Shown here: positions 1-50,532 of the stretch, piece by piece
Numbering within the stretch: the first letter of the stretch is position 1
How the letters are laid out: each line of letters starts with the position of its first letter
DNA from: Cohnella faecalis
GTDB lineage: Bacteria; Bacillota; Bacilli; Paenibacillales; Paenibacillaceae
Length of the DNA stretch: 64,000 nt
Assembly: GCF_003570905.1 (NCBI RefSeq)
Contig: NZ_QXJM01000030.1
Location: 62,001-126,000, forward strand
Direction of reading: 5' to 3'
Made by a program: the position numbers and the translations under genes
The notes under the pieces: model-generated
The model's database searches: none
Seen by the model: the letters and a program-made list of their open reading frames with translations, nothing else
Told to the model about the DNA's origin: nothing

Positions 1-603
1 ATAGTTCGGCACGATTCCCGCCGTCTTCTCGACATAAATCTGCCGGCTTCCCTTGGCTGCGAATTTTTTGACCTTGATGTCGACAAATTTGTTCGGAACG
101 GGATTGCCGGAGTTGGCATTAAGGAGGATGATGGGACGGATGCCGTGTTTTTTGAGTGCTGCGATTATTTTTTCAAAGCCCTTTATTTGAGGCTCTTTTA
201 ATTTGGCCTCGTTATCGAAAGAGATATTTCCCCAGCCGATTTCGACACGAGCCGAGCGGACTCCGGCCTCAGAGAGCAATTGGGCGGTCGCGTCGGCTTC
301 ATTGTCGGAGACGTTGAAGACGACACCGAGAGTTTCCAGATAGCGGCTGGCGTCCCATGTATCCATATAGGAACGCCAAGGAGCCAAATCAAACGAGGAG
401 ACTCCGAAGGGGATTTGTTGTTGTTTCCAGTCGACATAGGAGCGGTTTAATTCTCCTTGGACCGGAACGGAGGAAGCCGAGGCGGTGTAATCGGATTGAC
501 CCGGAATAGGATCCCAAGAAGCGAATAGCCATAGCAACAAGGAGATAAGGGCAACCGCAACGGTCGATATGACCCATTTCGGCCGTAAAAAGCGAAATTC
601 CAA
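1..603 (-). CDS. Secreted glycosidase-like protein, 5' part only
   Basis: The reading frame starts at TTG (603-601) and runs without a stop to the window edge, giving 201 residues of a longer protein. The start is set by AGGAGGA seven bases upstream. Residues 1-10 are basic (MEFRFLRPKW), followed by a hydrophobic stretch at about 11-27, so it is exported or membrane-anchored. From about residue 55 the text (IPFGVSSFDLAPW, then ARVEIGWGNISFD, then IRPIILLNANSGNP) reads as the first strands of a TIM-barrel glycoside hydrolase of the kind found in GH39/GH5-like clans. The exact family and catalytic residues lie outside the window. It diverges from the lasso operon and may be polysaccharide-related, which is inference. 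Confidence 0.6.
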   Translation of the reverse strand, partial: MEFRFLRPKWVISTVAVALISLLLWLFASWDPIPGQSDYTASASSVPVQGELNRSYVDWKQQQIPFGVSSFDLAPWRSYMDTWDASRYLETLGVVFNVSDNEADATAQLLSEAGVRSARVEIGWGNISFDNEAKLKEPQIKGFEKIIAALKKHGIRPIILLNANSGNPVPNKFVDIKVKKFAAKGSRQIYVEKTAGIVPNY

Positions 604-635
604 TTGATTATCCTCCTATCAAGTTCTAATTATTT

Positions 636-650
636 GATACAAATCGTAAC
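636..650. promoter_or_regulatory. Operator-like site GATAC-N5-GTAAC
   Basis: GATACAAATCGTAAC matches the recurring palindrome GATAC-N5-GTATC at all but one arm position. It lies between the divergent minus-strand glycosidase gene and the lasso operon promoter, about 33 bases upstream of the former's start codon. It could serve either gene. No regulator is known for it. Confidence 0.4.
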
Positions 651-703
651 ATATAATGCGAAAAAAATCGAGTTTTGAGATTAAGATTTTTTAAAAAAAG
701 TGA

Positions 704-731
704 TTGACACACCTGATACACGTATTATACA
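704..731 (+). promoter_or_regulatory. Promoter of the lasso peptide operon
   Basis: TTGACA at 704-709 is a perfect -35 box. A 16-base spacer leads to TATACA (726-731) as the -10, preceded by an A/T-rich stretch that could act as UP element. The TTG of the -35 box is also the first in-frame start of the downstream reading frame, but it has no ribosome site, so it is read here as promoter, not start codon. Confidence 0.6.
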
Positions 732-744
732 GTAAAACTCAAAT

Positions 745-759
745 GATACAGATAGTATC
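745..759. promoter_or_regulatory. Operator-like palindrome downstream of the lasso promoter
   Basis: GATACAGATAGTATC is a perfect inverted repeat of GATAC/GTATC around a 5-base centre. It begins 13 bases after the -10 box, where a bound protein would block initiation or early elongation. The same arms occur in the exopolysaccharide promoter (9539-9553) and, imperfectly, in the 50.5-kb promoter. Confidence 0.55.
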
Positions 760-787
760 AACTCGACGATCGGAAGGGGGTGCCGGA

Positions 788-1783
788 TTGGTAGCAACGC
801 TCCTTCGTTTCCTCTATGACAAGGAGACGCCCGCGCCGCATAACGAAGCGGTCTACCGGGGATTTCTGGAAGAGATCGAGTTGTTCGGTATCGCCTCTCA
901 AGTTCTGACCGCGCTTCAGCAATCGGGGAAGACGGATCAAGTGCCTGAAGACTTTGTCCGGCGCCTCAAAAGATACGCCGAGCCCGGCCGTTTCCGGAAC
1001 ATCAGGATTCAATGGTTCGAACGGCAGCTGTTCCGGATATTCGAGCAAGCGAACATTCCCGTCGTTCCATTAAAAGGAATCCAGTTCGCGGCCAACTATT
1101 TCGGACATTTCACCGCCCGCTCTACCGGGGACATCGATCTTCTCGTTCGGCCCGAGCAGCTGCAGGATGCGATCGAATGGCTGAAAGCTTTCGGTTACCG
1201 GCACGAGGAGACCATTCACAATCATGCGGTCCTTCGGAAAGCGGTTGACGGCGCGCCCTTGGTAGAGCTGCATTGGACGCTGGATAAGCCGGGATGGTCC
1301 GAATTGGATCCCGAACCGTTCTGGCGAGACTCCGCGCCGCTCGGACAATTCCGATTCGTACGGGAGCTGTCGGTTACGCATACGTTCTACGCGATTTGCC
1401 TCCATGGCGTCCGCCATCGGATGGAATCCCTCAGATATTTGCTGGATATCGCGCAGATGCTTTATCGGTTCGGCTCCTCGATTGATTACGCCGAGCTGTT
1501 CGCCCAGGCGGCCGCCGATCGAACGGTGAACCGGCTGAAGGCAGCGCTGTCGATCGTATACCGCGTTTTTCCGAAGCTTGATCAGCTCAAGCCTTTGCCC
1601 TTTGAGCCTAGGCGAACGCTGTGGAGCTACCCGGCCATCCGGGATGCCCGGCTTCGCGTCAAAAGCGTGCGTTACTACAAATACAGACTGTACTTCAAGC
1701 TGTTCATCTTCGACACATGGAAGCATGGATGGCACGCAAGAAGGCGAATAACGTCGAAATATTCGGAATATTCGACAAACTAA
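788..1783 (+). CDS. Nucleotidyltransferase-like protein of lasso cluster
   Basis: The start chosen is TTG at 788, seven bases after GGAAGGGGG; longer versions would begin inside the promoter. The 331-residue protein belongs to the uncharacterised nucleotidyltransferase family PF14907. It has LKG at 95-97, the metal-binding GDIDLLV at 114-120 and ELHW at about 160-163, the same three blocks as the paralogues at 5678 and 48343. Such genes accompany phosphorylated lasso peptides. In the pseudomycoidin system a homologue was reported to add hexoses to the phosphorylated peptide. Here it is the first gene of the operon, and modification of the phosphorylated C-terminus is the likely but unproven role. 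Confidence 0.75.
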   Translation: MVATLLRFLYDKETPAPHNEAVYRGFLEEIELFGIASQVLTALQQSGKTDQVPEDFVRRLKRYAEPGRFRNIRIQWFERQLFRIFEQANIPVVPLKGIQFAANYFGHFTARSTGDIDLLVRPEQLQDAIEWLKAFGYRHEETIHNHAVLRKAVDGAPLVELHWTLDKPGWSELDPEPFWRDSAPLGQFRFVRELSVTHTFYAICLHGVRHRMESLRYLLDIAQMLYRFGSSIDYAELFAQAAADRTVNRLKAALSIVYRVFPKLDQLKPLPFEPRRTLWSYPAIRDARLRVKSVRYYKYRLYFKLFIFDTWKHGWHARRRITSKYSEYSTN

Positions 1784-1825
1784 TTCAATCTATCAACTTG
1801 ACGCGGTTACAGTGGAGGTAAGAGC

Positions 1826-3763
1826 ATGAGCGCGATAGTCGGCATTTATCAGAACGACGGGGAATCCGTGCCTCAAGATCACGGTATGGGCTTGATGAGA
1901 GCGTTAGCGTCATACCCTTCCGACGATTCTCGGATTTGGCAACATTCCTCCGTTTTTCTCGGCTGCCATGCGCAATGGATTACGCCCGAATCGATCGGCG
2001 AAATATTGCCTTGCTACGATCAACAAAGGCAGCTGGCGATTACGGCGGACGCCATTCTCGACAACCGCGAAGAGCTGTTCGAAAAGCTGCAGGTCGATCG
2101 GTCGATTCGAAAGATTATTCCGGACAGTCAGCTCATTCTGCTGGCTTACGGCAAATGGGGCGACGAATCCCCGAGTCATCTGGTCGGAGATTTCGCTTTC
2201 ATGATCTGGGACGAAGCGGAGCGGAGGCTGTTCGGAGCTAGGGACTTCTCGGGAAACCGTACGCTTTACTTCGCCAGGGCAAGCGGGAGGTTCGCCTTCA
2301 GCACAATAATCAAACCGTTATTTTCGCTTCCTTATATAAGCAACGCTTTGAACGAGCAATGGCTAGCCGAATACTTGGCCAATCCCGGCAGACTGGAAAC
2401 CGTGGATGCCGGTTCCACCGTACACCGCCAAATCGAGCAATTGCCCCCGTCCCACTTCATCAGCGTAACGGACGGAGCGGTCAAAATAAGCCGATACCGG
2501 ACTTTCGAAGAGGCGCGCACGTTGCGTCTGAAGAACGACGGAGAGTACGAGGAAGCGTTCAGGGATGTGTTCCGGACTTCGGTTGCATCGCGGCTTCGGA
2601 CATTTCGCCAGGTAGGCTCCTTCTTGAGCGGCGGGCTTGATTCCGGCTCCGTGGCCAGCTTTGCGGCCAAAGCTTTGAGACGGGACAATAAGCAGCTGTT
2701 CACCTACAGCGCGATTCCTCTGAAAAGCTTCGACGATTGGACGACGAAGAGCCGGGTCGCCGACGAAAGGCCGTTGATTCGCTCGACGGTCGAGCATGTG
2801 GGCAACATCAAGGACCACTACCTCGATTTTGAAGGAAAGAGCCCTCTGACCGAGATGGACGAATGGCTGGACACGATGGAAATGCCCTACAAATTCGTCG
2901 AAAATTCTTACTGGTTCAACGGCATCTACGAGACGGCCAAGCGCAACGACGTCGGCGTTCTCTTGAATGGCGGAAGAGGCAACTTCACGGTGTCCTTCGG
3001 TCCGGCGCTCGAATACTACGTTCAGCTGTTGAAGAGGCTCAAATGGTTTACGCTGCACCGGGAGCTTTACCTCTACAGCCGGAACAAAGGCATCGGAAGA
3101 CGCCGACTGCTTGGTTATATGAAGGATAGGCTGTTTCCTCCCCGGATTTCGCCGGGCGACCGTTCCGTTCTCAGCCAGCTGATCCATCCGGCGTTCGCCG
3201 AGCGGACGCAAGCGTACGAGAAGCTGCAACGGAACGGCATCGACCTGTCGGGCTCTGCGATTCCCGATATGATCCACGCCAGAACGAAGCAATTCGAGGA
3301 GTGCTACCATTGGACGAACAGCGGAACGAGCGGAACGAAATTGTCGCTGCGCCACGGAATGTGGTATCGCGACCCGACGAACGACTTGCGCGTCATTCGG
3401 TTCTGCTTGTCGGTGCCGATCGACCAATACGTTCGGGACGGGATGGACAGGGCGCTTATTCGAAGATCGACCGTTAATCTCCTCCCGGATCAAATCCGGT
3501 TGAATTATAAGACGAGAGGCATCCAAGGAGCGGACGGCATTCAACGAATGGCGCCGGCATGGAAGTCTTTCATCCGGGAGGTAGATCGGCTGTGCGAGGA
3601 TAGAGAGATGGCGGAATGGCTTAACATTCCGGTCGTCAAAGCGGCGGCTTCCAAGTATCGCGAAGTGCCGGATCCGAGACAGATTTATACGGCCGAGTTC
3701 ACGATATTAATGCGCAGTCTCATCGTGTACCGGTTCGCCCATCGCTTGAGAGGAGGTGAATAA
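1826..3763 (+). CDS. Lasso macrolactam synthetase (asparagine synthase-like, C protein)
   Basis: 645 residues, start at ATG 1826 after GGAGGT. The N-terminal half is a class II glutamine amidotransferase fold, but the protein begins MSAIVG, so the catalytic Cys2 of true asparagine synthetases is missing, as is usual in lasso C proteins. The C-terminal half is an ATP-pyrophosphatase synthetase domain with the PP-loop SGGLDS at 268-273. By family it adenylates the side-chain carboxylate of the ring Asp/Glu and closes the isopeptide bond to the core N-terminus. The precursor gene starts one base after its stop codon, so the two are translationally linked. Confidence 0.9.
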   Translation: MSAIVGIYQNDGESVPQDHGMGLMRALASYPSDDSRIWQHSSVFLGCHAQWITPESIGEILPCYDQQRQLAITADAILDNREELFEKLQVDRSIRKIIPDSQLILLAYGKWGDESPSHLVGDFAFMIWDEAERRLFGARDFSGNRTLYFARASGRFAFSTIIKPLFSLPYISNALNEQWLAEYLANPGRLETVDAGSTVHRQIEQLPPSHFISVTDGAVKISRYRTFEEARTLRLKNDGEYEEAFRDVFRTSVASRLRTFRQVGSFLSGGLDSGSVASFAAKALRRDNKQLFTYSAIPLKSFDDWTTKSRVADERPLIRSTVEHVGNIKDHYLDFEGKSPLTEMDEWLDTMEMPYKFVENSYWFNGIYETAKRNDVGVLLNGGRGNFTVSFGPALEYYVQLLKRLKWFTLHRELYLYSRNKGIGRRRLLGYMKDRLFPPRISPGDRSVLSQLIHPAFAERTQAYEKLQRNGIDLSGSAIPDMIHARTKQFEECYHWTNSGTSGTKLSLRHGMWYRDPTNDLRVIRFCLSVPIDQYVRDGMDRALIRRSTVNLLPDQIRLNYKTRGIQGADGIQRMAPAWKSFIREVDRLCEDREMAEWLNIPVVKAAASKYREVPDPRQIYTAEFTILMRSLIVYRFAHRLRGGE

Positions 3764-3764
3764 G

Positions 3765-3887
3765 ATGAACAAAGAGTGGAAACAACCATCGCTTGAAGTG
3801 CTTGACGTGAAAATGACTTTCGCAGGTCCAGGTGTTACGATTCCGGACTCCTTGGATCCGGACGAAGCTACGCAGCACCACAGCTAA
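3765..3887 (+). CDS. Lasso peptide precursor, paeninodin-like
   Basis: 40 codons, ATG 3765, with AGGAGGTG overlapping the end of the synthetase gene. Leader residues 1-19 begin MNKEWKQPSLEVLDV, which contains the aromatic-x-x-P recognition motif bound by B1 proteins, and end in Thr-Phe, with the conserved Thr at -2. The 21-residue core starts at Ala20 (codon 3822) with AGPGVTIPD, where Asp at core position 9 would close a nine-residue macrolactam, and ends QHHS. Paeninodin has the same AGPG start, ring size and C-terminal Ser, the residue phosphorylated by its kinase. The computed monoisotopic mass of the cyclised core is 2124.97 Da, or 2204.94 Da with one phosphate. Confidence 0.93.
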   Translation: MNKEWKQPSLEVLDVKMTFAGPGVTIPDSLDPDEATQHHS

Positions 3888-3900
3888 TGCCCGCCTTACC

Positions 3901-3935
3901 AAAGGCCCTTATACGCATTACGTATGAGGGCCTTT
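3901..3935 (+). terminator. Hairpin after the lasso precursor gene (attenuator-like)
   Basis: AAAGGCCCT (3901-3909) pairs perfectly with AGGGCCTTT (3927-3935), and the inner bases ATACG/CGTAT extend the stem. No uninterrupted T-run follows, only TTTGTCATT. It sits between the precursor and the first modification gene, so it more likely stabilises the precursor mRNA or reduces read-through than stops transcription fully. The inner CATTACGTATG also resembles a half of the operator palindrome. Confidence 0.6.
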
Positions 3936-3969
3936 GTCATTAACGATCGAGACGTTGGAGTGAAGACAA

Positions 3970-4911
3970 ATGGTTCATACGATTCAGAAGCAGCTGTACC
4001 GGGCGTTCGGCTTTGCCGTCGAAAGCGGATTTGCGCTTCCCGAGCTTCCGCGTCTGGAAGGGGAAGCCGAATTGGCGGATGTCGTTATCGAAGCCGCGGA
4101 TTTGACGGCGGACTGGAACCGACTGGTCGAGCCTAACCGGAAATCCGTCGTTCTGGAAAACCGGATCTTGTTCCAAATACCCGGCACGGCGACGTTCGAT
4201 ATTCAGGACGGTAAGAAAATCAGAGTATGCCCCGCCGAAGACGCCGACGAAGACCAGGTTCGCCTGTATATATTGGGCACTTCCATGGGAGCCTTGCTGC
4301 TCCAACGGCGAATTTTGCCGCTTCATGGAAGCGCGATAGCCGTTGACGGCAAAGCGTACGCGATTATTGGAGAATCGGGCGCCGGCAAGTCGACGCTTGC
4401 TTCCGCTTTCCTCCGTCAAGGGTACTCTCTCGTGAGCGACGACGTTATCGCCGTAACGTTCGCCGAAGACGGAACGCCGATGGTGACGCCGTCCTATCCC
4501 CAGCAAAAGCTTTGGCAGCAAAGCTTGGACGGCTTCGGGATGTCGAACGAGCACTATCGCCCGATTTTCCGGAGAGAATCCAAATTCGCCGTTCCCGTCG
4601 TCTCCAGCTATCATACGGAGCCGCTGCCTTTGGCCGGCTTGTTCGAGCTGGTGAAGTCGGATGGCGAAGAGCCTTCGCTTGCGCCCGTTCGAAGCTTGGA
4701 GCGGCTTGCGGTTCTGCATGCGCACACGTACCGCCAGTTTTGGATTCCGCGGCTTGGTCTGACCGACTGGCATTTTCAGAAGACGGCGCAGTTGTCCGGC
4801 AAAGCCGGGATTTACCGTCTGCAGCGTCCGGCGACAGGATTTACCGCTCCCGAGCTGGCCGCTATCATTCTCAATACGATACAAAAGGATGGATCGACCT
4901 ATGGCAACTGA
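3970..4911 (+). CDS. HPr kinase-like lasso peptide kinase
   Basis: 313 residues, ATG 3970 preceded by GGAGTGAAG. The protein is an HprK/PEP-carboxykinase-type P-loop kinase: Walker A GESGAGKST at 134-142, then LVSDDV at about 155-160 as the catalytic/metal region. The N-terminal 120 residues are variable. In the paeninodin system the homologue PadeK phosphorylates the C-terminal Ser side chain of the precursor. The precursor here also ends in Ser and the P-loop is intact, so the same reaction is expected. The stop overlaps the following B1 gene. Confidence 0.88.
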   Translation: MVHTIQKQLYRAFGFAVESGFALPELPRLEGEAELADVVIEAADLTADWNRLVEPNRKSVVLENRILFQIPGTATFDIQDGKKIRVCPAEDADEDQVRLYILGTSMGALLLQRRILPLHGSAIAVDGKAYAIIGESGAGKSTLASAFLRQGYSLVSDDVIAVTFAEDGTPMVTPSYPQQKLWQQSLDGFGMSNEHYRPIFRRESKFAVPVVSSYHTEPLPLAGLFELVKSDGEEPSLAPVRSLERLAVLHAHTYRQFWIPRLGLTDWHFQKTAQLSGKAGIYRLQRPATGFTAPELAAIILNTIQKDGSTYGN

Positions 4912-5209
4912 CACGAAGTTGAACGCGACGAATTACGTACTGCAAGGCGAGGGCAACGTCGTAAGCGACATGGACGGGGAAAAGGTCATGCTGAGCGTGA
5001 GTAACGGAAAATATTACAACCTGGGCGAAATAGGAGGGCGAATTTGGGATTTGATCGCATCTCCGATCAGCATCGGTCAAGTTGTCAATCTGCTGCTGGA
5101 GGAATTCTCGGTCGATCGGGCGGAATGCGAGCGGCATGTGCTGGTTTTTCTGGAGCAATTGTCGGCGGAAAAGCTGATCCATGTCGGTGAGACGGTTAAG
5201 CTCAAATGA
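4901..5209 (+). CDS. PqqD-like RiPP recognition protein (lasso B1)
   Basis: 102 residues. ATG 4901 was preferred over ATG 4889 because AAGGATGG lies about eight bases upstream of it; either would overlap the kinase gene. The protein has the PqqD/RRE fold signature: a beta hairpin ending in YYNLGEIGGRIWDLI at about 40-54, then helices with a VDRAECERHV stretch. B1 proteins bind the leader and deliver it to the B2 protease. The stop codon overlaps the B2 start as ATGA, indicating translational coupling. Confidence 0.9.
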   Translation: MATDTKLNATNYVLQGEGNVVSDMDGEKVMLSVSNGKYYNLGEIGGRIWDLIASPISIGQVVNLLLEEFSVDRAECERHVLVFLEQLSAEKLIHVGETVKLK

Positions 5210-5688
5210 ACGCGGCGAAGCATGCGATCAAGTTTTTTTCCATGCGTGACGGGTACAGGGGGCTGCTGATCGAATCGTTCCTGTATTTGGCTTGGGCCCG
5301 ATTTTTGATCGCTCTGCCTTTTACCAAAGTCGCTCCTTCCTTAGGAAGCCCTATGGAGGAAACTCCGCATGAACCCGGAACGGCGGACAGGAACGAATTG
5401 AAAAAAATATCCGCTGCGCTCCACATGGTCAGCCGCCATACGCTCTGGAGCAGCAAATGCCTCGTTCGCGCGATCGCCGGGATGAAAATGCTGGAAAGAC
5501 GCCGAATCGAGAGCACCTTGTATCTCGGCACCGCCAAGGACAAGAACGGGGAGATGATCGCCCACGCTTGGCTCCGCAGCGGTACGTTCTACTTGACAGG
5601 CGCGGAAGAAATGAGAAAGTTCACCGTCGTGGGGAAATTCGCCAAAAGTATAAATCACGAAGGACTAGAGGGATGGAATGATGGCTAG
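5206..5688 (+). CDS. Lasso leader peptidase (transglutaminase-like, B2)
   Basis: 160 residues, ATG 5206 overlapping the B1 stop. It matches the B2 family of cysteine proteases with a transglutaminase-like fold. The catalytic Cys is expected at 85 (SSKCLVRA) and the His at 120 (AHAWL), followed by TFYLTG where the third residue of the triad normally lies. It cuts after leader residue 19 to free Ala1 for cyclisation. B1 and B2 are separate genes here, as in Firmicute clusters, rather than fused as in proteobacteria. Confidence 0.9.
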   Translation: MNAAKHAIKFFSMRDGYRGLLIESFLYLAWARFLIALPFTKVAPSLGSPMEETPHEPGTADRNELKKISAALHMVSRHTLWSSKCLVRAIAGMKMLERRRIESTLYLGTAKDKNGEMIAHAWLRSGTFYLTGAEEMRKFTVVGKFAKSINHEGLEGWNDG

Positions 5689-6856
5689 AAGCTCAACGGA
5701 TATTGACGGATTGCCCCAGGAGCTGCGGCTGTTGCTACGCATGCTGAGTACGGAGAACGGAGGGGAGCCGCTGTCTGCGGAGGCGGCGCCGTACGAGGAC
5801 ATCGATTGGGGCCGGTTTCAACGGCTCGCCATGCATCATCGCGTGTATCCGAGCTTGTACGCGATCTTGAAAAAAGCGGCTTTGCCGTGGGTTCCGCAGC
5901 CGTTGATTCAAGACTTGAGCCGCGAATACAAGAAGAACACGTTTCGGATGCTTCGTCTGACCGGAGAGATGGAGAGAATTTGCGCGCTGCTTGCCGATCA
6001 AGGGGTTCGCTCGATCGTGCTGAAAGGCCCGCCGCTTGCTCGCGAGCTATACGGGGACGTGTCTCTTCGCACCTCGAAGGATCTCGATATTATGATCCCT
6101 ATCGACGATGTGGACAAGACGGATCGGTTGTTGACGCAGCTGGGATATAAGTGCGTGGACTTCGTGCCGAACATTCTGAACGGCTGGAGATGGAGACAGC
6201 ACCATGCGGGCTACGATCATCCCGACTTGCCTATTAATCTCGAAATTCATTGGAGATTAAGCCCCGGGCCTTCGAGAGAGCCCGGATTCGAAGAGCTGTG
6301 GGAGCGAAGAAGAATATCTGAGATGACTCCCACTCCCATTCATTACCTCGGAGCCGAGGATTCATTCTTGTATCTGGTCACTCACGGCGCCAGACACGGC
6401 TGGTTTCGGGTTCGTTGGCTCGGTGATATCGACATTCTGGCTTGCAGGCATGCGGACGAGTGGGCAAAGATCGAAGCTCTGATGGATCGCTATCAAGCCC
6501 GCGACATGGTCGGCCAATCGCTGTACCTGATCTCGGCTCTCTGGAGCACGCCGCTAACCCCGGATATGCGCCGCTATTCGTCTGGAACGAAGGCGCAGAC
6601 GTTGGGACGGCAAGCGTTGTATTTCATTCGCGAGATGGTCGAGAATCCGCCTCCGGAATTGGAGCGGAAGCACAAGCAGTATTTGTTCTCCCTGAAATCG
6701 TTTCGGCAGAAGATTTTGTACGCCCTAAGCTTTCTGTATCCTTATCCGAAGGATGTCGAGACGCTGCCGCTGCCCAAACCGGTTCACTTCCTGTACTTTC
6801 CTCTCCGTCCTTTTTTGTGGATGTGGAGAAAGGCCAGAAAACACGCATGGACTTAG
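5678..6856 (+). CDS. Second nucleotidyltransferase-like protein of lasso cluster
   Basis: 392 residues, ATG 5678 overlapping the end of B2 by 11 bases. It has the same PF14907 block order as the first gene of the operon: VLKG at 114-117, the acidic pair KDLDIMI at 134-140 (Asp135, Asp137), and EIHW at about 189-192. The usual Gly before the first Asp is Lys here. The C-terminal half is alpha-helical and specific to this subfamily. Two such genes in one lasso operon suggest two substrates or successive additions, which is inference. Confidence 0.75.
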   Translation: MMARSSTDIDGLPQELRLLLRMLSTENGGEPLSAEAAPYEDIDWGRFQRLAMHHRVYPSLYAILKKAALPWVPQPLIQDLSREYKKNTFRMLRLTGEMERICALLADQGVRSIVLKGPPLARELYGDVSLRTSKDLDIMIPIDDVDKTDRLLTQLGYKCVDFVPNILNGWRWRQHHAGYDHPDLPINLEIHWRLSPGPSREPGFEELWERRRISEMTPTPIHYLGAEDSFLYLVTHGARHGWFRVRWLGDIDILACRHADEWAKIEALMDRYQARDMVGQSLYLISALWSTPLTPDMRRYSSGTKAQTLGRQALYFIREMVENPPPELERKHKQYLFSLKSFRQKILYALSFLYPYPKDVETLPLPKPVHFLYFPLRPFLWMWRKARKHAWT

Positions 6857-6869
6857 GAGGGTATCCGGA

Positions 6870-8711
6870 ATGGAACCAATCTGGTTTTTTATAAGGCGGC
6901 TTTACGAGTTTACCGGCAACAAAATTTTGTTCAACGTCTCGGGGATGGTGTTCGTCAGCTTCCTGGAGGGGCTTGGCATCGTGATGCTCGTGCCGATGCT
7001 TACGTTGAGCGGAATGTCCGGCCTGCAGGACGACGAGGTCCCGTTGGCAAAATGGTTCGGATTCATTCATGAAATACCGGCGCCATGGGTACTGCCCGCC
7101 ATATTGGGGCTGTTCGTTCTGGTCGTTACGACTCAGAGCTTCTTAAAGCGCCAGGTGACGCTTCAGAACATCAAGATCAATCAGAGCTTCGATTTGGCGA
7201 CGAGAACGGAGACGTACCGGCTGCTGCTGCAGGCCAATTGGGATTTCTTCATCAAAAGAAGGAAGTCGGACATGATCAGCTCGCTTACTTCGGAGATCGC
7301 CCGGATTAACGGCGGAATTACCCTGTCCTTGCAATTGCTCGCGACGGTCATCTACACGATGATTCAAATCGGCTTGGCGTTCTGGCTGTCTCCCGAGGTT
7401 ACCGCTTTCGTGCTCGCCAGCGGAATCGTCCTTGCCTTGTTTTCTCGCAAATTCATTCGCAGAGCCAAAAAGCTGGGAACGCAATCGACGGAACTGGCTC
7501 GACTCTACTTGGCCGGCATTACCGACCAAATGAACGGGATCAAGGATATTAAGACCCATACGCTCGAATATTCGCGCCTTGGCTGGATGCGAGCGATGAG
7601 CTCGCGCGTGCTGCAGGAGCAATCCGAATTTATCAAATTGAAAACGACGACGCAGTTCTTCTACCAGATCGCGTCTGCCATATTAATCTCGGGCTTCATT
7701 CTGCTGTCGGTTCAAATTTTTCATACCCCGTGGGCGCAGCTGCTCCTCATTGTTATCATCTTCACCAGACTGTGGCCGAGATTTACCGGGTTTCAATCCA
7801 ACGTGGAGCAGATCGCATCGTTCTATCCCGCGTACAAGAACGTCCTTCGGCTCCAGCAGGAATGTCGGGAAGCCGCCGAATTCGCCATCGGGGACGAAGC
7901 CGACCATCCCGTCCGCCCATTGGAGGTCAAAACTTCCCTCGAATGCCGGGATGTCTCTTTCCGTTACAACCGTCAGGACGAGCGATTCGCCTTGCAAAAT
8001 ATCGACTTGGAAATACCGGCGAATCGAATGACCGCAATTGTCGGGAAATCCGGCGCCGGCAAAAGCACGCTTATCGATCTGTTCATGGGCTTGATGCTCC
8101 CGGAGGTTGGACAAGTGGTCGTGGACGGGGTTCCTCTGACCAACGCCCATTTGGTGGCGCTGCGGCGTTCGATCAGCTACGTGCCGCAGGATCCTTTCCT
8201 GTTCAACGATACGATACGGGAAAATTTGCTTATGGTGAAGCCCGGCGCAGAGGAGGGCGAGCTGTGGGAGGCGCTCGATTTCGCGGCGTGCTCGGAGTTC
8301 GTGCGCAAGCTGCCCAAAGGCCTCGATACGTTCATCGGTGACCGGGGAGTACGGCTGTCGGGAGGAGAGCGCCAACGGCTCGTGCTGGCGAGGGCGATTC
8401 TGCGAAAGCCGTCGGTACTCGTTCTGGACGAGGCGACAAGCGCGCTCGATACGGAGAACGAATCGAAAATCCAGGAAGCGATCGAGAGATTGAAAGGGAA
8501 AATGACGATCATCGTAATCGCCCATCGTCTGTCGACCATTCGCAACGCCGATCAAGTTGTCGTGATCGACCAAGGCCGAATCGTCCAGAGAGGGCGGTTC
8601 GGCCAGCTGGCCAAGGATAAGAGAAATCTGTTCAGTCATTTGCTGGGCAATCAGTCCGATGACGAGTCGAATGCAGAAGGAGAAGAACGGATTAGAGATG
8701 TGCGAGGATGA
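6870..8711 (+). CDS. ABC transporter for lasso peptide export (membrane plus ATPase domains)
   Basis: The start is ATG 6870, after AGGAGGG. The first possible in-frame ATG, 117 bases earlier, lies inside the previous gene and gives a non-membrane N-terminus. 613 residues: six predicted membrane helices in the first 320, then an ATPase domain with Walker A GKSGAGKST (392-400), signature LSGGERQR (496-503) and Walker B VLVLDEATSALD. This is the half-transporter type (D protein) that exports the mature peptide and gives self-immunity in lasso systems. It is the last gene of the operon, four bases from a convergent acetyltransferase gene. Confidence 0.88.
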   Translation: MEPIWFFIRRLYEFTGNKILFNVSGMVFVSFLEGLGIVMLVPMLTLSGMSGLQDDEVPLAKWFGFIHEIPAPWVLPAILGLFVLVVTTQSFLKRQVTLQNIKINQSFDLATRTETYRLLLQANWDFFIKRRKSDMISSLTSEIARINGGITLSLQLLATVIYTMIQIGLAFWLSPEVTAFVLASGIVLALFSRKFIRRAKKLGTQSTELARLYLAGITDQMNGIKDIKTHTLEYSRLGWMRAMSSRVLQEQSEFIKLKTTTQFFYQIASAILISGFILLSVQIFHTPWAQLLLIVIIFTRLWPRFTGFQSNVEQIASFYPAYKNVLRLQQECREAAEFAIGDEADHPVRPLEVKTSLECRDVSFRYNRQDERFALQNIDLEIPANRMTAIVGKSGAGKSTLIDLFMGLMLPEVGQVVVDGVPLTNAHLVALRRSISYVPQDPFLFNDTIRENLLMVKPGAEEGELWEALDFAACSEFVRKLPKGLDTFIGDRGVRLSGGERQRLVLARAILRKPSVLVLDEATSALDTENESKIQEAIERLKGKMTIIVIAHRLSTIRNADQVVVIDQGRIVQRGRFGQLAKDKRNLFSHLLGNQSDDESNAEGEERIRDVRG

Positions 8712-8715
8712 GAGC

Positions 8716-9231
8716 TCATTGCTCGGCTCTTAGCGATATAACCTTGGCCGGAACTCCGGCGACGATCGAATAAGGCGGCGTATCCTTCGTTACGACGGCG
8801 CCGGCGGCGACGACGGTTCCTCTCGAAATCGTGACGCCCGGGACGACGATAACGCCTGCCCCCAGCCAACAGTCGGATTCGACGGACACGTCCTTCGCGT
8901 GTTGCTCCTGTCGCTCGATGAGCAGATCCTTCCGAATTCCGTGATTGGAGGCAAACAGTTGGACGTAGGGGCCGAGCAACACGTCGTCGCTTACCGTTAT
9001 TTTACCGGTTCCCGGCCACAGTACGCAGCCATGCCCGATGTGAACGTTGCGGCCGAGATAGATTTGCTCCGGCTGCTTCAAGGATACGGTAGAGTCGATA
9101 ATCGCTCCATTGTAAGCTCCTAGCTTCGTTATGGCGACCGAATGCTCGTCATACCTTTTTAGCAGCGAAATAATCGTGAATTTCCAAAAACCGGGACGAA
9201 GCAGTTGCAGTAAAATTTTCGACTTCAACAT
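8716..9231 (-). CDS. Hexapeptide-repeat O-acetyltransferase
   Basis: 171 residues, ATG at 9231 after GGGGGAG. The left-handed beta-helix is seen from repeated [LIV]-G-x4 units: [50 protein letters not shown]. The catalytic His is probably in FASNHGI. It ends AGVPAKVISLR, typical of WcaF/WbbJ-type acetyltransferases acting on sugars. It is transcribed towards the lasso operon; a TATAAT -10 lies on the minus strand at 9266-9261. It could acetylate the exopolysaccharide. Acetylation of the lasso peptide is less likely, because known lasso acetyltransferases belong to another fold. Confidence 0.8.
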   Translation of the reverse strand: MLKSKILLQLLRPGFWKFTIISLLKRYDEHSVAITKLGAYNGAIIDSTVSLKQPEQIYLGRNVHIGHGCVLWPGTGKITVSDDVLLGPYVQLFASNHGIRKDLLIERQEQHAKDVSVESDCWLGAGVIVVPGVTISRGTVVAAGAVVTKDTPPYSIVAGVPAKVISLRAEQ

Positions 9232-9370
9232 GACTCCCCCTCTTCGTTAATCTTGTTTTAATTATACCATTATTTAGTATTAATTCTATCGATAACCAAC
9301 AATCGGAAAGCTTATAATTTATTCATTTCATCGATAGAGAGAGCTGCCGAGAGGCGCTTCTCCATGGAGG
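9232..9370 (+). promoter_or_regulatory. Upstream leader region of the exopolysaccharide locus, possible structured RNA
   Basis: No gene lies on the plus strand here, yet two terminator-like hairpins follow, so a plus-strand transcript probably begins here. A weak promoter is possible: TTGTTT (9253-9258), 16-base spacer, TAGTAT (9275-9280). The transcript would contain GAGA-N6-TCTC and the palindrome CTCCATGGAG (9360-9369) before the first terminator. It was compared by eye with c-di-GMP, T-box and other common riboswitch cores and no match was recognised. Confidence 0.3.
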
Positions 9371-9371
9371 T

Positions 9372-9406
9372 CCGATCCCGCTGGACAGCGGGATTCGGGC
9401 TTTTTT
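9372..9406 (+). terminator. Intrinsic terminator upstream of exopolysaccharide operon
   Basis: CCGATCCCGCT (9372-9382) pairs with AGCGGGATTCGG (9387-9398) around a GGAC loop with one bulged T. GC and six T follow (9401-9406). This is a textbook Rho-independent terminator on the plus strand with no plus-strand gene before it, which suggests attenuation of a leader transcript. Confidence 0.75.
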
Positions 9407-9441
9407 GTTTTCGACAAATCAATGTTCCGAAACGTAACATA

Positions 9442-9456
9442 ATGAAAGCGCTTAAT
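9442..9456. promoter_or_regulatory. Candidate CcpA cre site
   Basis: ATGAAAGCGCTTAAT agrees with the Bacillus cre consensus WTGNAARCGNWWWCA at 13 of 15 positions; the last two bases differ. It lies about 75 bases upstream of the -35 box of the exopolysaccharide promoter, a position compatible with catabolite control. The call rests on pattern match only. Confidence 0.4.
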
Positions 9457-9458
9457 AG

Positions 9459-9485
9459 AAAAAACCTGCTGCAACGGGCTTTTTT
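9459..9485 (+). terminator. Second terminator-like hairpin before the exopolysaccharide promoter
   Basis: Six A (9459-9464) and CCTG pair with CGGG and six T (9480-9485), with one bulged C and a six-base loop. The A- and T-runs make it potentially bidirectional. It ends exactly where the first operator-like repeat begins. Confidence 0.45.
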
Positions 9486-9588
9486 GATACATTACGTATG
9501 AAAATAGACGACAAAACTCCAAGAAACCCCATTGACAAGATACATTATGTATCATAAACTAAAGCTACATTACGATACGTTACGTAGC
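9486..9588. promoter_or_regulatory. Operator array at the exopolysaccharide promoter
   Basis: Four copies or partial copies of one 15-bp palindrome occur in about 100 bases: GATACATTACGTATG (9486-9500), GATACATTATGTATC (9539-9553, perfect), GCTACATTACGATAC (9564-9578) and GATACGTTACGTAGC (9574-9588). The perfect copy fills the spacer of the promoter. The spacing of about one to five helical turns would allow cooperative binding of a dimeric repressor. The regulator is unknown. Confidence 0.6.
9532..9560 (+). promoter_or_regulatory. Main exopolysaccharide operon promoter
   Basis: TTGACA (9532-9537), a 17-base spacer and TAAACT (9555-9560). The spacer consists of one base, the perfect palindrome GATACATTATGTATC, and one base. 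The promoter at 50471 has the same arrangement to the base. Occupancy of the palindrome would exclude RNA polymerase. Confidence 0.7.
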
Positions 9589-9630
9589 AAATTGTGCAGA
9601 ACGATTCAGTTGCTACGAGGAGGAAAAAAC

Positions 9631-10377
9631 ATGGAAATCGAAATGAAGCGTTATGTTTCCGCCTTGAAGGCGCGGCTCTGGATCGTGCTGCTGATCGTAG
9701 CGGCGGCCACCGCATCAGCTTACATGTACACGAAGAACTTTACGCCAAGCTATTACACGGCGAACACAAAGCTGATCGTCAACAAAACGATCGAAGCGTT
9801 CGGCGCCGAGCAAATGGATTTCTCGTCGATCGGCACCAGCATCAGGCTTATCGAAACATACAAACAAATTATTCAAACGCCCGCAATCATGGATAAGGTC
9901 GTGGAAAAGTACCCCGAGCTCGGGCTCACTGCCAACCAGTTGATCGGGATGGTCAACGTATATGCCGTCAACGAAACGCAGGTCATGTCCCTCTCCGCTA
10001 CAGACTCCAATTACGTTCTCGCCGCGCGAGTCGTCAACGCGGTATCGGAAGTGTTCAAAGCCGAAATCCCCAAAATTATGAAGGTCGACAACGTGACCAT
10101 CCTGACGAAAGCGAAGGAAAATGAGCCGACCCGCCCTTACGGTCAAAATCTCAAGCTTAACGTCGCCGTTACGTTCGCCGTCTCGCTCATGCTATCCGCC
10201 GGCTTAATCGTCCTGCTGGAGTACTTGGACAATTCGATCAAGTCGGAGGAAGAAATATGGCAGCTCGTCGGCGTTCCGTCCTTCGCCGCCATACCGAAGA
10301 TGAAGAAACGCGATTTCAAACGGAGATATTCCGGCCCCACATCCAAATCGCTGCAGGCAGGTGAGCAAGCGCTATGA
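9631..10377 (+). CDS. Wzz/CapA-type polysaccharide co-polymerase, module 1
   Basis: Start at ATG 9631 after GAGGAGG; an upstream in-frame TTG is the promoter -35 box. 248 residues: membrane helix at about 17-35, an extracytoplasmic Wzz domain, and a second helix at about 175-195 followed by a short cytoplasmic tail (PSFAAIPKM). In Gram-positives this protein sets chain length and is the membrane adaptor that activates the separate tyrosine kinase encoded next. The stop overlaps that gene as ATGA. Confidence 0.88.
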   Translation: MEIEMKRYVSALKARLWIVLLIVAAATASAYMYTKNFTPSYYTANTKLIVNKTIEAFGAEQMDFSSIGTSIRLIETYKQIIQTPAIMDKVVEKYPELGLTANQLIGMVNVYAVNETQVMSLSATDSNYVLAARVVNAVSEVFKAEIPKIMKVDNVTILTKAKENEPTRPYGQNLKLNVAVTFAVSLMLSAGLIVLLEYLDNSIKSEEEIWQLVGVPSFAAIPKMKKRDFKRRYSGPTSKSLQAGEQAL

Positions 10378-11024
10378 GTAAATCGACCGCAAAACCGGCG
10401 TTGCTGATGGAACTGAATCCTCTCTCGCAAATATCGGAAATCTATCACAGCCTTCGCTCGAACATCGAATTTTCGACGGCCAAGCAAGAGGCCCGGGTAC
10501 TCGCCTTAACGTCCTCGCATCGAGGAGAAGGCAAGACGACGACAGCCGTCAACCTGGCTCTCGCCTATTCCAGATCCGGCAAAAAAGTGCTGCTCGTCGA
10601 CGCGGACCTTCGCAATCCTTCGCTTCATTCGATTTTGGACCAGCCCAGAAGGGAAGGACTGAGCAACTATTTGCTCGATCAATCCGCCATCTGGGACGTG
10701 ATCAAGGAAACGTCCTATCCTAACCTCCATGTCATTACTTCGGGCGCTCTTCCCGCCAATCCGACCGAGCTGCTCTCGTCGAAAAATTTGAGCGAGCTGT
10801 TCAAGGAGCTCAAAGGAACCTTCGACCGGATCATCGTAGACTCTCCCCCTCTGTTGTCGGCAGCCGACTCTCAAATTTTGGCATCCTCCACGGACGGAGT
10901 CGTTCTCGTCATCGAATATGCCAAGACCCCCCGGGCGCAAATTCAGAAAGCGGCGAAGACGCTGGAGCATATCGGCACGCCGCTGCTCGGAACCGTCATC
11001 AACAAATCCAAACGCAAAATTTAA
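10374..11024 (+). CDS. CapB/EpsB-type tyrosine kinase, module 1, without Tyr-rich tail
   Basis: 216 residues. P-loop GEGKTT at 51-56, Walker A' LLVDADLR at 73-80 and Walker B DSPPLLSAAD identify a bacterial tyrosine kinase of the MinD-like superfamily. These kinases normally end in a cluster of autophosphorylated tyrosines. This one ends VINKSKRKI with no Tyr cluster, unlike its paralogue at 33273. It may work as an ATPase switch for the co-polymerase, or be phosphorylated elsewhere. No frameshift that would restore a Tyr tail is visible downstream. Confidence 0.87.
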   Translation: MSKSTAKPALLMELNPLSQISEIYHSLRSNIEFSTAKQEARVLALTSSHRGEGKTTTAVNLALAYSRSGKKVLLVDADLRNPSLHSILDQPRREGLSNYLLDQSAIWDVIKETSYPNLHVITSGALPANPTELLSSKNLSELFKELKGTFDRIIVDSPPLLSAADSQILASSTDGVVLVIEYAKTPRAQIQKAAKTLEHIGTPLLGTVINKSKRKI

Positions 11025-11039
11025 TCGAATAGCGCCAAA

Positions 11040-11165
11040 CGAGCTTTAGGTAATGTCTACTGCACCTTTATCACTGTAGGCACTCGGCCATGCTGTGGGT
11101 TGGAAAGCCTTAGACGTGAATCGTCGAGGGTATGGCGTGAGGAGGGGTTAGATGCCCTGGTCTTA
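11040..11165 (+). ncRNA. Candidate EAR (epsC) antitermination RNA element
   Basis: The 189-base gap between the kinase gene and galU holds a G-rich, structured stretch: GACG-TGAAT-CGTC hairpin (about 11113-11125), TAGGC pairing with GCCTTA, GCCAT pairing with ATGGC, and GGG-TTAGATG-CCC. The EAR element of Bacillus eps operons is about 120 bases, lies inside the operon just after the Wzz/kinase pair and promotes processive antitermination. Position, size and structure fit, and a 41-kb operon would need it. I could not compare it with the covariance model. Confidence 0.5.
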
Positions 11166-11213
11166 TTTTTTCGAACTGCGAGCACAGACGAATTTGAATT
11201 GGAGGTGGATTTG

Positions 11214-12104
11214 ATGAAAAAAGTGAGAAAAGCGATTATTCCCGCAGCGGGACTCGGCACTCGTTTTTTGCCGGCGACCAAGGCAATGCCCAAAGAAATG
11301 CTGCCTATCATCGACAAGCCGACTATTCAATACATCGTGGAAGAAGCGGTCGAATCCGGAATTGAGGATATTCTCATCGTAACGGGGAAAGGCAAGCGGG
11401 CGATCGAGGATCATTTCGACCATGCATTCGAGCTCGAAAGCAATTTGGTCGAAAAAGGGAAGCTGAAGCTTCTGGAGGAAGTTCAAAGGTCTTCCAAGGT
11501 CGATATTCACTACATCCGGCAAAAGGAGCCCAAAGGGCTCGGTCACGCCATTTGGTGCGCCAGGCGCTTCATCGGCGACGAGCCGTTCGCCGTTCTTCTC
11601 GGAGACGATATCGTTCGTTCTGAGGTTCCGTGCCTGAAGCAAATGATTCAGCAGTACGACCATGTAGGAGCCTCGATTATTGGCGTTCAGCCCGTATCGG
11701 ATATCGAGACGCAGCGTTACGGCATTATCGATCCTTCGGGCAAGGAAGGCCAGCTCTACCGGGTAAACAATTTTGTGGAAAAGCCGCCTCTCGGCATGGC
11801 ACCTTCGAATTTGGCGATCATGGGCCGCTACGTTCTAACGGCCGATATTTTCCCGTTCCTAGAGACGCAAGAAACCGGAGTAGGCGGAGAAATCCAACTG
11901 ACGGACGCCATTCAGAAATTGAACGAGATTCAGCAAGTATACGCTTATCACTTCTACGGAACGCGTTACGACGTAGGGGAAAAGCTCGGATTCATCCAGA
12001 CGACGATCGATTTCGCCATGAGCAACGAAGAACTCCGCGCTCCTCTGCTGGAATCCATGGAGAGGATTGTGCGTGCCGAGTATGTGGCCCGCGTAATCGG
12101 ATAA
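11214..12104 (+). CDS. galU: UTP-glucose-1-phosphate uridylyltransferase
   Basis: 296 residues, ATG 11214 after GGAGGTGG. The text starts [19 protein letters not shown], with the nucleotide-binding GLGTR loop, and continues with [19 protein letters not shown], both diagnostic of the GalU/GtaB family. It makes UDP-glucose from UTP and glucose-1-phosphate. With the UDP-glucose dehydrogenase two genes on, it supplies UDP-glucose and UDP-glucuronate to the exopolysaccharide. Confidence 0.93.
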
Positions 12105-12116
12105 TAGGGGGCTCTT

Positions 12117-12812
12117 ATGGCGGAACCTTCGAAGGAATTGGATTTTGCATACGGAAGCGGAACTTATTTCCCCGGCGCCAGGACGCAAGTCAACCAGAAG
12201 GGACTTCGTTTTTATGTGGGCTTCAAGCGTATGATGGACGTCGTTATCGCGACCGCGGCGCTTGTCGTCCTAAGTCCGTTTCTAGTGATCATCGCCGCAG
12301 GCGTCAAAATGAGCGATCGCCAAGGCAGCGTGTTTTTTCGCCAAATCCGGATAGGCAAAAACGGCCGGCCGTTCCATATGATCAAATTCCGCACGATGGT
12401 CACGAATGCCGAATCCATGCTTGGAGATTTGCTGAACCGCAACGAAGTAGCCGGCAAAATGTTCAAGATGAAGGAAGACCCCCGTATTACGAAGCTGGGT
12501 AAAATTTTGCGAAAAACGAGCGTCGACGAGCTGCCGCAGCTGATCAACGTGATCCGGGGCGAAATGAGCCTCGTAGGACCTCGGCCGCCTCTGCAGCGCG
12601 AGGTGGATGAATATTCCGCGCGGGATCGGCAGCGCCTTGAAGTGACTCCGGGCTGTACCGGACTGTGGCAGGTGAGCGGCAGAAACGCGCTTAGCTTCGA
12701 CGAGATGGTAGAGCTTGATTTGTTGTACATCAGCAGCCGGAGTATCCGTATGGACATCCGAATCATCCTTAAGACGGTCAAGGTCATGATTTTTCCTAAT
12801 AATGCTTATTGA
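12117..12812 (+). CDS. Initiating sugar-phosphate transferase (undecaprenyl-phosphate type)
   Basis: 231 residues, ATG 12117 after GGGGG. A short N-terminal tail is followed by KRMMDVV and one membrane helix at about 41-62, then the catalytic bacterial sugar transferase domain (PF02397) with IKFRTM, DELPQL and GLWQVSGR blocks. It lacks the polytopic N-terminal part of WbaP/WcaJ, so it is a minimal enzyme. It transfers hexose-1-phosphate to undecaprenyl phosphate, the first step of repeat-unit assembly. It is the only such enzyme seen, so both assembly modules may depend on it. Confidence 0.9.
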   Translation: MAEPSKELDFAYGSGTYFPGARTQVNQKGLRFYVGFKRMMDVVIATAALVVLSPFLVIIAAGVKMSDRQGSVFFRQIRIGKNGRPFHMIKFRTMVTNAESMLGDLLNRNEVAGKMFKMKEDPRITKLGKILRKTSVDELPQLINVIRGEMSLVGPRPPLQREVDEYSARDRQRLEVTPGCTGLWQVSGRNALSFDEMVELDLLYISSRSIRMDIRIILKTVKVMIFPNNAY

Positions 12813-12836
12813 ATCTACACCGGTCGGAGGATCCTT

Positions 12837-14201
12837 ATGAACGTTACTGTAATAGGTACGGGGTACGTCGGTCTGACGACCGGCGTATCTTTGGCTTTTA
12901 TCGGACATAGCGTGACGTGCGTAGATATCGACGAACGCAAGATCGAGAATCTGCTTGCGGGCGTCATGCCGATTCACGAGCACGGGCTGGAATCGCTGTT
13001 CGAAGCGGTTCGCCCGCGTCTGCATTTCACCGTCTCCTACGCGGAAGCGGTTCGAAACGCCGAAGTGGTTATTCTAGCGATCGGCACCCCGGCGAGAGAG
13101 GACGGCTCGCCTAATCTCTCTTACTTGCACGAGGCCGTCGATCAGGTGCTTGGCTCCCTCGCGGGCAAGCTAACGCCGACGCTGCTCGTCAACAAGAGCA
13201 CGGTGCCCGTTGGCACCGGCGATCGTCTGGCGGAGAAAGTCGCCGCCCGAGGGTTGAGCGCGCGGGTGTCGGTCGCGTCGAATCCCGAGTTTTTGCGTCA
13301 AGGCAGAGCTTTATCGGACACCCTGTACCCGGAACGAATCGTTGTGGGGGGCAAGCCGGAAGGCTGGCGGACGCTGCGGGAGCTCTACCTTCCGCTGCTG
13401 GAGCAGAAGTTCGAGGAGCCCTTCGATTTGCCTCGGCCTCGGGGGCTTGCTCCGGTGAAGTTCATTACGGTGACGCTTCGCAGCGCCGAGCTTGGCAAAT
13501 ATGCAGCGAACGCTTATCTCGCCATGAAGATCAGCTTTATTAACGAAATGGCCAATTTGTGCGACAGAGTAGGCGCGGACGTGATCGACATCGCCGGCAT
13601 TATCGGAACGGACACCCGAATCGGCGGCGCTTTTCTCCAAGCCGGAATCGGTTACGGAGGAAGCTGCTTTCCGAAGGATACGCGGGCGCTTCACTATATC
13701 GCCGACGCGAACGGCTACGATTTCAAGCTGTTGTCCGCCGTCATCGAAGTGAATCGGTCCCAGAAGTTTACGCTTATCGATAAGCTCCGTTCGGAGCTTA
13801 TTGACTTTCGCGGTCGCAAAATCGCGGTGCTCGGCCTTACGTTCAAGCCGGGAACGGACGATTTGAGGGAAACGCCCAGCCTTCCGATTGTCGAAGCGCT
13901 CTTGGCGGAAGGAGCCGTCGTCGCCGTTCACGATCCGGTAGCGCTCGATAAAGCCAGGTCGTTGCTTCCGGCGAGCGTACAGGCGTCCTCCGATTTGGAA
14001 GAGACGCTCCAGGATGCGGAAGCGGCGCTGCTCGTAACGGAATGGCCGATTTATTTGGCGTTGGACGGACATCGCCTGCGGGAGCTGATGAAACGACCGC
14101 TCTTCATCGACGGGAGAAACGCCTTGCCCCCGGAGCGCCGAATCCATCTCGACTATCGCGGGATCGGCACGGGAGCCGCCGAAGCGGCCTTGATTACTTA
14201 A
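12837..14201 (+). CDS. ugd: UDP-glucose 6-dehydrogenase
   Basis: 454 residues, ATG 12837 after GGAGGAT. Rossmann motif GTGYVGLTTG at 7-16 and active-site GGSCFPKD with the nucleophilic Cys at 277; the C-terminal domain has LGLTFKPGTDDLRETPS for UDP binding. It oxidises UDP-glucose to UDP-glucuronate with two NAD+. The product implies an acidic polymer. That fits a GH105-like unsaturated-uronyl hydrolase in the same locus. Confidence 0.93.
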   Translation: MNVTVIGTGYVGLTTGVSLAFIGHSVTCVDIDERKIENLLAGVMPIHEHGLESLFEAVRPRLHFTVSYAEAVRNAEVVILAIGTPAREDGSPNLSYLHEAVDQVLGSLAGKLTPTLLVNKSTVPVGTGDRLAEKVAARGLSARVSVASNPEFLRQGRALSDTLYPERIVVGGKPEGWRTLRELYLPLLEQKFEEPFDLPRPRGLAPVKFITVTLRSAELGKYAANAYLAMKISFINEMANLCDRVGADVIDIAGIIGTDTRIGGAFLQAGIGYGGSCFPKDTRALHYIADANGYDFKLLSAVIEVNRSQKFTLIDKLRSELIDFRGRKIAVLGLTFKPGTDDLRETPSLPIVEALLAEGAVVAVHDPVALDKARSLLPASVQASSDLEETLQDAEAALLVTEWPIYLALDGHRLRELMKRPLFIDGRNALPPERRIHLDYRGIGTGAAEAALIT

Positions 14202-39982: not shown

Positions 39983-40003
39983 TTTCTCGGCAGGGTGGCG
40001 CAT

Positions 40004-41482: not shown

Positions 41483-41497
41483 GGAGGTGACAAAGGC

Positions 41498-42403: not shown

Positions 42404-42437
42404 CCGTCCGAATAAAAAAAAGGTTGTGGCTGATCCG

Positions 42438-45905: not shown

Positions 45906-45919
45906 GGAGGAGGGCTGGC

Positions 45920-49467: not shown

Positions 49468-49484
49468 GAAAGGAATGGCGGAAG

Positions 49485-50414: not shown

Positions 50415-50470
50415 GAGAAGAGTACATGCGAGAAACGTGTCGTTTTGGAGCAAAATGTGACAAAATTCAA

Positions 50471-50499: not shown

Positions 50500-50532
50500 C
50501 TTCTCAAACGAAAGTCTTTATTCATAGGACGA

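Follow-up and report, generated by a model that had tools for sequence, protein, structure and literature searches.

The window, by which the whole 64,000-nucleotide stretch of Cohnella faecalis DNA analysed here is meant, carries a set of genes of the lasso peptide type: a nucleotidyltransferase (NT1), a cyclase (C), a precursor (A), a kinase (K), a RiPP recognition element (RRE; B1), a leader peptidase (B2), a further nucleotidyltransferase (NT2), and an exporter (D), with a hairpin between A and K (Table 1). The promoter-like site ahead of NT1 counts for little as promoter evidence, because the whole scan barely exceeds shuffled sequence (8 sites versus a shuffled mean of 5.0, sd 2.3). The start of NT1 was placed at TTG 788, which has GGAAGGGGG 7 nt upstream and is likelier than TTG 704, since the latter falls inside the promoter-like site; NT1 ends 42 nt before C.

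Table 1. Positions of the features of the window discussed in the text
Feature	Position	Strand	Basis
Promoter-like site, possibly of the lasso operon	704–733	+	TTGACA-18-TACAGT; 10/12 consensus matches
NT1, second nucleotidyltransferase (PF14907), LppN lineage	788–1783	+	PF14907, 141.5 bits (cut-off 31.2)
C, lasso macrolactam cyclase (asparagine-synthetase-like)	1826–3763	+	NF033535, 361.3 bits; Asn_synthase over cut-off
A, lasso precursor gene	3765–3887 (ATG 3765, TAA 3887)	+	40 aa; NF033524 match
Hairpin between A and K	3900–3936	+	16-bp stem, 5-nt loop; contains CCCTTATAC...GTATGAGGG
K, HPrK-related kinase	3970–4911	+	Hpr_kinase_C, 31.8 bits, just below Pfam's 33.3
B1, RRE (PqqD-like)	4889–5209	+	NF033536, 131.9 bits (cut-off 80)
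B2, leader peptidase (transglutaminase-like)	5206–5688	+	NF033537, 102.3 bits (cut-off 33)
NT2, lasso-type nucleotidyltransferase	5678–6856	+	PF14907, 203.5 bits; open frame
D, ABC exporter (start inferred)	6870–8711	+	ABC_tran and ABC_membrane over cut-off; open frame
PF14907 nucleotidyltransferase, linear polyphosphorylated-peptide (LPP) lineage	48343–49467		Tree placement; part of partial LPP-like set, 48343–51667
271-aa protein	50577–51392		By eye resembles LPP kinase with degenerate P-loop; no Pfam or NCBIfam hit
Second RRE (PqqD-like)	51374–51667		KLNEVGG, i.e., Asn, LPP type; alignment by eye

The start of A is preceded by a strong ribosome-binding site (AGGAGGTGA), which overlaps the 3′ end of C. 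The 40-residue lasso precursor that a preliminary description had placed between the synthetase and kinase genes is borne out by a match to NCBIfam NF033524 (paeninodin family lasso peptide) at 60.6 bits (E 8.7e-17, cut-off 27), a match not due to chance, since the score exceeds the cut-off and precursors of this type were detected in none of 14 control genomes. The leader, MNKEWKQPSLEVLDVKMTF (3765–3821), contains W-x-x-P with the Trp at −15, i.e., about 15 residues before the core, and Thr at −2. The 21-residue core, AGPGVTIPDSLDPDEATQHHS (3822–3884), contains Asp9, the acidic residue required at position 8 or 9 for macrolactam formation, and an HHS end with the C-terminal Ser21. Taken together, these features point to a member of the paeninodin family with an Ala1–Asp9 ring, the proposed cleavage site, and phosphorylation of the C-terminal Ser, as the same description had suggested. 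The masses that it quoted, 2124.97 and 2204.94 Da, are correct; the recomputed monoisotopic values are 2124.971 Da for the lasso peptide, 2204.938 Da with phosphate, and 2366.990 Da with phosphate and one hexose.

Cyclase, RRE, and B2 peptidase all lie alongside the precursor, with the cyclase scoring below the NF033535 cut-off of 525 but retaining SGGLDS. For K, B1, B2, and C, the columns in which at least 90% of the relatives' rows agree were inspected, and departures were found at 1 of 60, 0 of 7, 0 of 39, and 2 of 164 columns, respectively; the departing residues are a Cys-to-Ser exchange in K, and Ala-to-Ser and Trp-to-Phe exchanges in C, none in motifs taken as catalytic. In B2, the columns of Cys85 and His120 are kept in 101 of 101 rows each. 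In K, His119, Lys140, Asp157, and Asp158 stand in conserved columns (126, 126, 126, and 122 of 126 rows) of an alignment of relatives other than PadeK and ThcoK. A His-Lys-Asp-Asp set has been reported to be essential in the kinase (PMC9266682), and we take these four residues to correspond to it. C is below its NCBIfam cut-off and K just below that of Pfam, yet both fit their relatives, and the earlier statement that all processing genes are present and intact holds for K, B1, B2, and C by their conserved columns, with NT2 and D being open frames with domain matches.

The block C-A-K-B1-B2-NT-D is present in 67 of 128 related loci and forms the whole string in 29; these loci were gathered through the precursor family or through a cyclase similar to that of the window, and they include a few duplicates; the counts therefore describe relatives rather than lasso clusters at large. 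The placement of the precursor between C and K was considered as an unusual trait and rejected, this being the usual position in related loci. Of 394 genomes of the bacterial family, 239 have NF033524-family precursors, as do 20 of the 37 from the genus. The 128 loci contain 157 precursor ORFs, 154 of which were parsed into 144 distinct leader–core pairs, 143 with a usable core; the three ORFs missed by the parser still show W-x-x-P. Among the 144 distinct precursors, the leader Trp is found in 143 (the exception being a misparsed row) and Thr at −2 in all, and among the 143 cores, the terminal Ser is universal, Asp9 is found in 125, an AGPG start in 38, and an HHS end in 11, including that of the window.

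These counts bear on how new the peptide is. At least 5 of the 36 other genomes in the genus have the identical core (loci L073, L075, L102, L103, and L104, in genomes G008, G021, G031, G022, and G009, respectively), in precursors with 36–37 of 40 residues identical to those of the window, and near copies occur in three more genomes (L065, L071, and L074; 34–35 of 40 residues identical). These counts of recurrence are lower bounds, drawn from those precursor places in the genus that were read. Moreover, paeninodin-like clusters in Cohnella have already been published (PMC10308117). Thus, the peptide had been described as a new paeninodin-family lasso peptide, of which the family assignment stands, whereas "new" applies only in a relative sense. 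Similarly, the His-His pair near the C-terminus is present but not peculiar, with some of the HHS ends occurring in other genera. Neither it nor W-x-x-P was retained as an unusual trait, as both recur in relatives and the latter is the family norm. With its common gene block, normal W-x-x-P, universal terminal Ser, and widespread precursors, the lasso class is an ordinary one.

The same genome, a 6.43-Mb draft in which the window is C23:62001–126000, contains two further family precursors, at C57:43451 and C20:101505. The former (L063) belongs to a complete cluster and has the core YGKGMTNIDFVTTEDMDIYSPS. The latter (L064, G000:C20:93001–112000) is accompanied by C-A-K-D only, without B1, B2, or NT, an arrangement that forms the whole string in 9 of the 128 loci; clusters of this kind presumably rely in trans on the B1 and B2 of a different cluster. 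Elsewhere in this genome, L215 (G000:C33:85001–104000) holds K-B1-B2-D-C of a further lasso-like cluster in which no family precursor was detected.

Comparison with characterised relatives suggests how the window's peptide would be produced, phosphorylated, and glycosylated. Paeninodin (PadeA, Paenibacillus dendritiformis C454; NF033524) shares with it the family model, Thr at −2, the nine-residue ring with Asp9, the terminal Ser, the kinase, the split B1/B2, and the exporter, and differs in that the window has an additional LppN-type nucleotidyltransferase ahead of C. The window's 21-residue core, with its own loop and HHS end, presumably differs from that of paeninodin. The paeninodin precursor likewise follows C, as the name of the construct pET41a-padeCAB1B2D implies (PMC5067487). 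Pseudomycoidin (psm cluster, Bacillus pseudomycoides DSM 12442) is alike in combining a kinase with a nucleotidyltransferase, of which PMC9266682 names one, compared with two in the window's operon; its (poly)phosphorylated C-terminal Ser carries one or two hexoses (PMC9266682). By analogy with these systems, B1 would bind the leader through W-x-x-P, K would phosphorylate Ser21 of the precursor, B2 would cleave after Phe−1, C would close the Ala1–Asp9 macrolactam around the tail, one of the nucleotidyltransferases would add hexose to the phosphate, as PsmN for pseudomycoidin, and D would export the product.

The hexose step has an unlikely competitor, in which the product is a phosphorylated, unglycosylated lasso peptide, as is paeninodin in E. 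coli, with NT2 and NT1 being idle or acting elsewhere—for example, on the neighbouring polysaccharide. An exopolysaccharide locus indeed adjoins the lasso operon, and PMC9266682 describes the addition of hexose for PsmN of pseudomycoidin alone and leaves open whether PsmN itself is the glycosyltransferase. However, 67 of the 128 loci have a nucleotidyltransferase between B2 and D, and the LKG, DxD, and HW positions are kept in all four nucleotidyltransferases compared, both of which count against this competitor.

The proposed leader recognition can be compared with published work on RREs. The Trp of W-x-x-P is nearly invariant in paeninodin-like leaders, in which this motif is the norm, and paeninodin RREs have a Gly, Gly42 in PbaB1, at the position of an Asn in LppB, the Gly-containing RREs favouring W-x-x-P (PMC13381572). 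The window's B1 matches the solved chain 9x90_B (E 7.7e-31), which is probably PbaB1, because, when its numbering is started at the Met of chain residue 19, Gly, Glu, and Gln fall at 42, 75, and 79, in agreement with PMC13381572. In B1, the Gly (Gly46, in NLGEIGG) and the Glu are kept, and His replaces Gln; by the criterion of PMC13381572, the Gly supports a paeninodin-type RRE favouring W-x-x-P. Paeninodin-like and LPP clusters are also both often found in capsule loci (PMC13381572), a setting that fits the genes for a chain-length protein, a tyrosine autokinase, a sugar transferase, and a UDP-glucose dehydrogenase at 9595–14198. This exopolysaccharide locus continues at 40000–48346 with glycosyltransferases and dTDP-rhamnose-type genes, as judged by eye, and its two parts sit between the lasso operon and the partial LPP-like set of Table 1, which also includes a LytR_cpsA_psr protein.

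NT1, on which the preliminary description was silent, as it was on the hairpin 3′ of A, belongs to a different lineage from NT2. In a tree of 60 nucleotidyltransferases, NT1 and four Cohnella proteins form a supported clade (100/96) nested in a 16-row clade (100/98) that includes LppN of P. alginolyticus, and NT2 falls in a 37-row clade of lasso nucleotidyltransferases from paeninodin-type clusters; the NT2 rows of this tree were hand-picked, and long branches were flagged by the tree tool. NT1 shows 38% identity to P. alginolyticus LppN and 19% to NT2. In the LPP cluster (lppAKBSDN, P. alginolyticus DSM5050; PMC13381572), lppA comes first, followed by the genes for the kinase, RRE, signal peptidase, exporter, and LppN and then by lasso C, such that NT1 stands where LppN stands. 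Unlike in that cluster, NT1 has neither an LPP precursor nor an LPP kinase nor a signal peptidase beside it. The LPP precursor motif YxxP...FET yielded candidates in 15 other loci and none in the window, whose lasso precursor has W-x-x-P without FET, and no archaeal-type signal peptidase was detected in the window or just upstream. The lasso locus itself was thus rejected as an LPP cluster, there being no LPP precursor or signal peptidase in the window.

That NT1 serves a separate LPP pathway, unrelated to the window's lasso peptide, comes close to an even chance. NT1-type genes occur in 14 of 120 lasso loci (repeats removed), 9 of which also have the archaeal-type signal peptidase of LPP clusters, and among the five without a detected one (the window, L071, L140, L170, and L216), L170 keeps LPP-like genes ahead. 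Two of the four closest relatives of NT1 (L218 and L220) lie in loci without a detected lasso gene, and in P. alginolyticus LppN directly precedes C. The genome's one signal-peptidase match lies on contig C20 (270371–270766, − strand), with a P-loop protein also on the − strand within 270–273.6 kb and, 2.4 kb from the match, a candidate LPP-type precursor preceded by a good ribosome-binding site (YTAPQVLLHENVRFET; L214:11394–11558, + strand), which NT1 could serve, all within L214 8359–11558 (G000:C20:270359–273558), where no nucleotidyltransferase was detected. Given these genes and the nucleotidyltransferase, kinase-like protein, and RRE of the window at 48–52 kb, the genome may have the LPP pathway in pieces. 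Against a separate role for NT1, however, neither an LPP precursor nor a signal peptidase was found beside it, it lies immediately ahead of C with the nearest promoter-like site in front of it, L071 and L216 likewise have NT1-type genes next to complete lasso clusters, and no LPP genes within the stretch covered, and the other LPP-lineage nucleotidyltransferase of the window (Table 1) could serve an LPP pathway instead. It is solely by position that NT1 would be tied to the lasso product. Most likely, NT1 is an enzyme of the LppN type that remains from an LPP cluster or was acquired from one, the simplest story being that the other LPP genes were lost at this locus.

The hairpin is the other feature by which the operon gains interest. 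Folding of 3885–3972 gave −31.1 kcal/mol (z −5.1), and none of 200 shuffles was as stable. A stem test was applied with a 203-nt reach, a 9-base left arm matching CCCTTATAC at 8 or more positions, and 8 or more of 9 pairs. It detected the stem CCCTTATAC/GTATRAGGG in 98 of 153 distinct stretches downstream of A genes, compared with 0 of 633 downstream of K, B1, B2, NT1, NT2, and D genes and 0 of 1530 single-base shuffles; the 19 of 161 found behind C genes were obtained with a reach that runs past the short A gene. When only 6 matches and 7 pairs are required, the controls also match often, and the loose hairpin list alone is therefore no evidence. When hairpins were picked by energy alone, a 9-mer with at least 8 matches was present in 92 of 153, versus 0 of 180 behind D, NT2, and B2. 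A stricter pattern had 70 sense-strand matches in 2.31 Mb of loci, a few of which are repeats, and all 70 were within 200 nt behind A; in the 6.4-Mb draft genome of the window its one match is the hairpin of Table 1. This stricter pattern is present in 106 of the 394 genomes of the bacterial family, including some that lack a family precursor (e.g., G065, G067, and G260). In tandem precursor runs (L095 and L098), the stem follows the last gene only. A covariance model applied to 37 genus genomes placed 19 of its 20 best places (E ≤ 2e-4) beside a family precursor, several of these 19 being training rows and the exception being G015:C7:139659. In the window's genome, it found only the window and C57 hairpins at E ≤ 0.1; the third cluster, L064, lacks the motif, with a poor match in the loose search only and none by the covariance model.

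Among 86 aligned hairpins, 12 of 14 pairs showed two-sided changes (96 cells versus 40.5 in shuffles, above all slid versions), a test that leans towards structure because the hairpins were chosen partly by pairing. U-G pairs are frequent on the sense strand (for two of the pairs, 12 and 13 of 86), and reading the antisense strand instead lowers the number of full nine-pair stems from 84 to 48 of 153, pointing to an RNA element and not a DNA operator.

It is reasonably probable that this hairpin is an ordinary intrinsic terminator or mRNA-stabilising stem whose sequence plays no specific role, its likeness between species reflecting common descent and the usual look of Bacilli terminators. In 76 of 138 hairpins, T makes up at least 5 of the 10 nt that follow the arm, and the hairpin model (R1) at E ≤ 3e-4 matched 72 of 250 genomes of the class. 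A family precursor is present in 26 of the 250 and lies beside a match in 18 of these, whereas 54 of the 72 have none beside a match; the model is unspecific outside the family, and similar stems occur elsewhere in Bacilli. However, the stem sequence is kept behind A in 98 of 153 cases although the relatives' cyclases are only 50–65% identical to that of the window, and it is absent behind 633 other operon genes. In the window, moreover, the stem itself continues behind the arm, no T-run follows, and the terminator scan did not report the hairpin, which argues against a plain terminator there. Rfam contains nothing that matches the hairpin, its two weak hits in 1–10000 (E 1.5 and 3.3) lying elsewhere. 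The words "hairpin," "terminator," and "intergenic" are absent from the main texts of PMC13381572, PMC5067487, and PMC11705953, and the paper titles surveyed include nothing relevant on a hairpin or terminator in lasso operons; the original reports on paeninodin and pseudomycoidin, which lie outside this scope, may mention one. Conserved behind the precursor and terminator-like in many species, the stem probably tunes the precursor-to-enzyme ratio, most likely by stabilising the 3′ end of a C-A message or by partial termination.

As a whole, the gene set, the inferred steps, the hairpin, and the origin of NT1 are very probably best explained by a complete paeninodin-type lasso operon of Cohnella, which would add one undescribed member to a widespread family. 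The bolder combination, in which a protein or nuclease recognises the sequence of the paeninodin-family hairpin and thereby sets the precursor-to-enzyme ratio, and in which the Cohnella lasso peptide is also modified by a nucleotidyltransferase taken over from the LPP pathway, is improbable; if true, the peptide would be decorated by enzymes of two pathways. Hairpin and NT1 are modest, testable leads, and more useful than the peptide. The former bears on the balance between precursor and enzymes in these operons and on their refactoring, and an LPP-lineage enzyme in a lasso operon bears on the exchange of parts between both pathways.

At its end, the lasso operon is faced by a hexapeptide-repeat acetyltransferase gene (8716–9231, − strand). 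On the same contig upstream of the window, L062 621–1100 and 10761–11420 contain short-repeat-peptide ORFs—that is, tandem DNA repeats.
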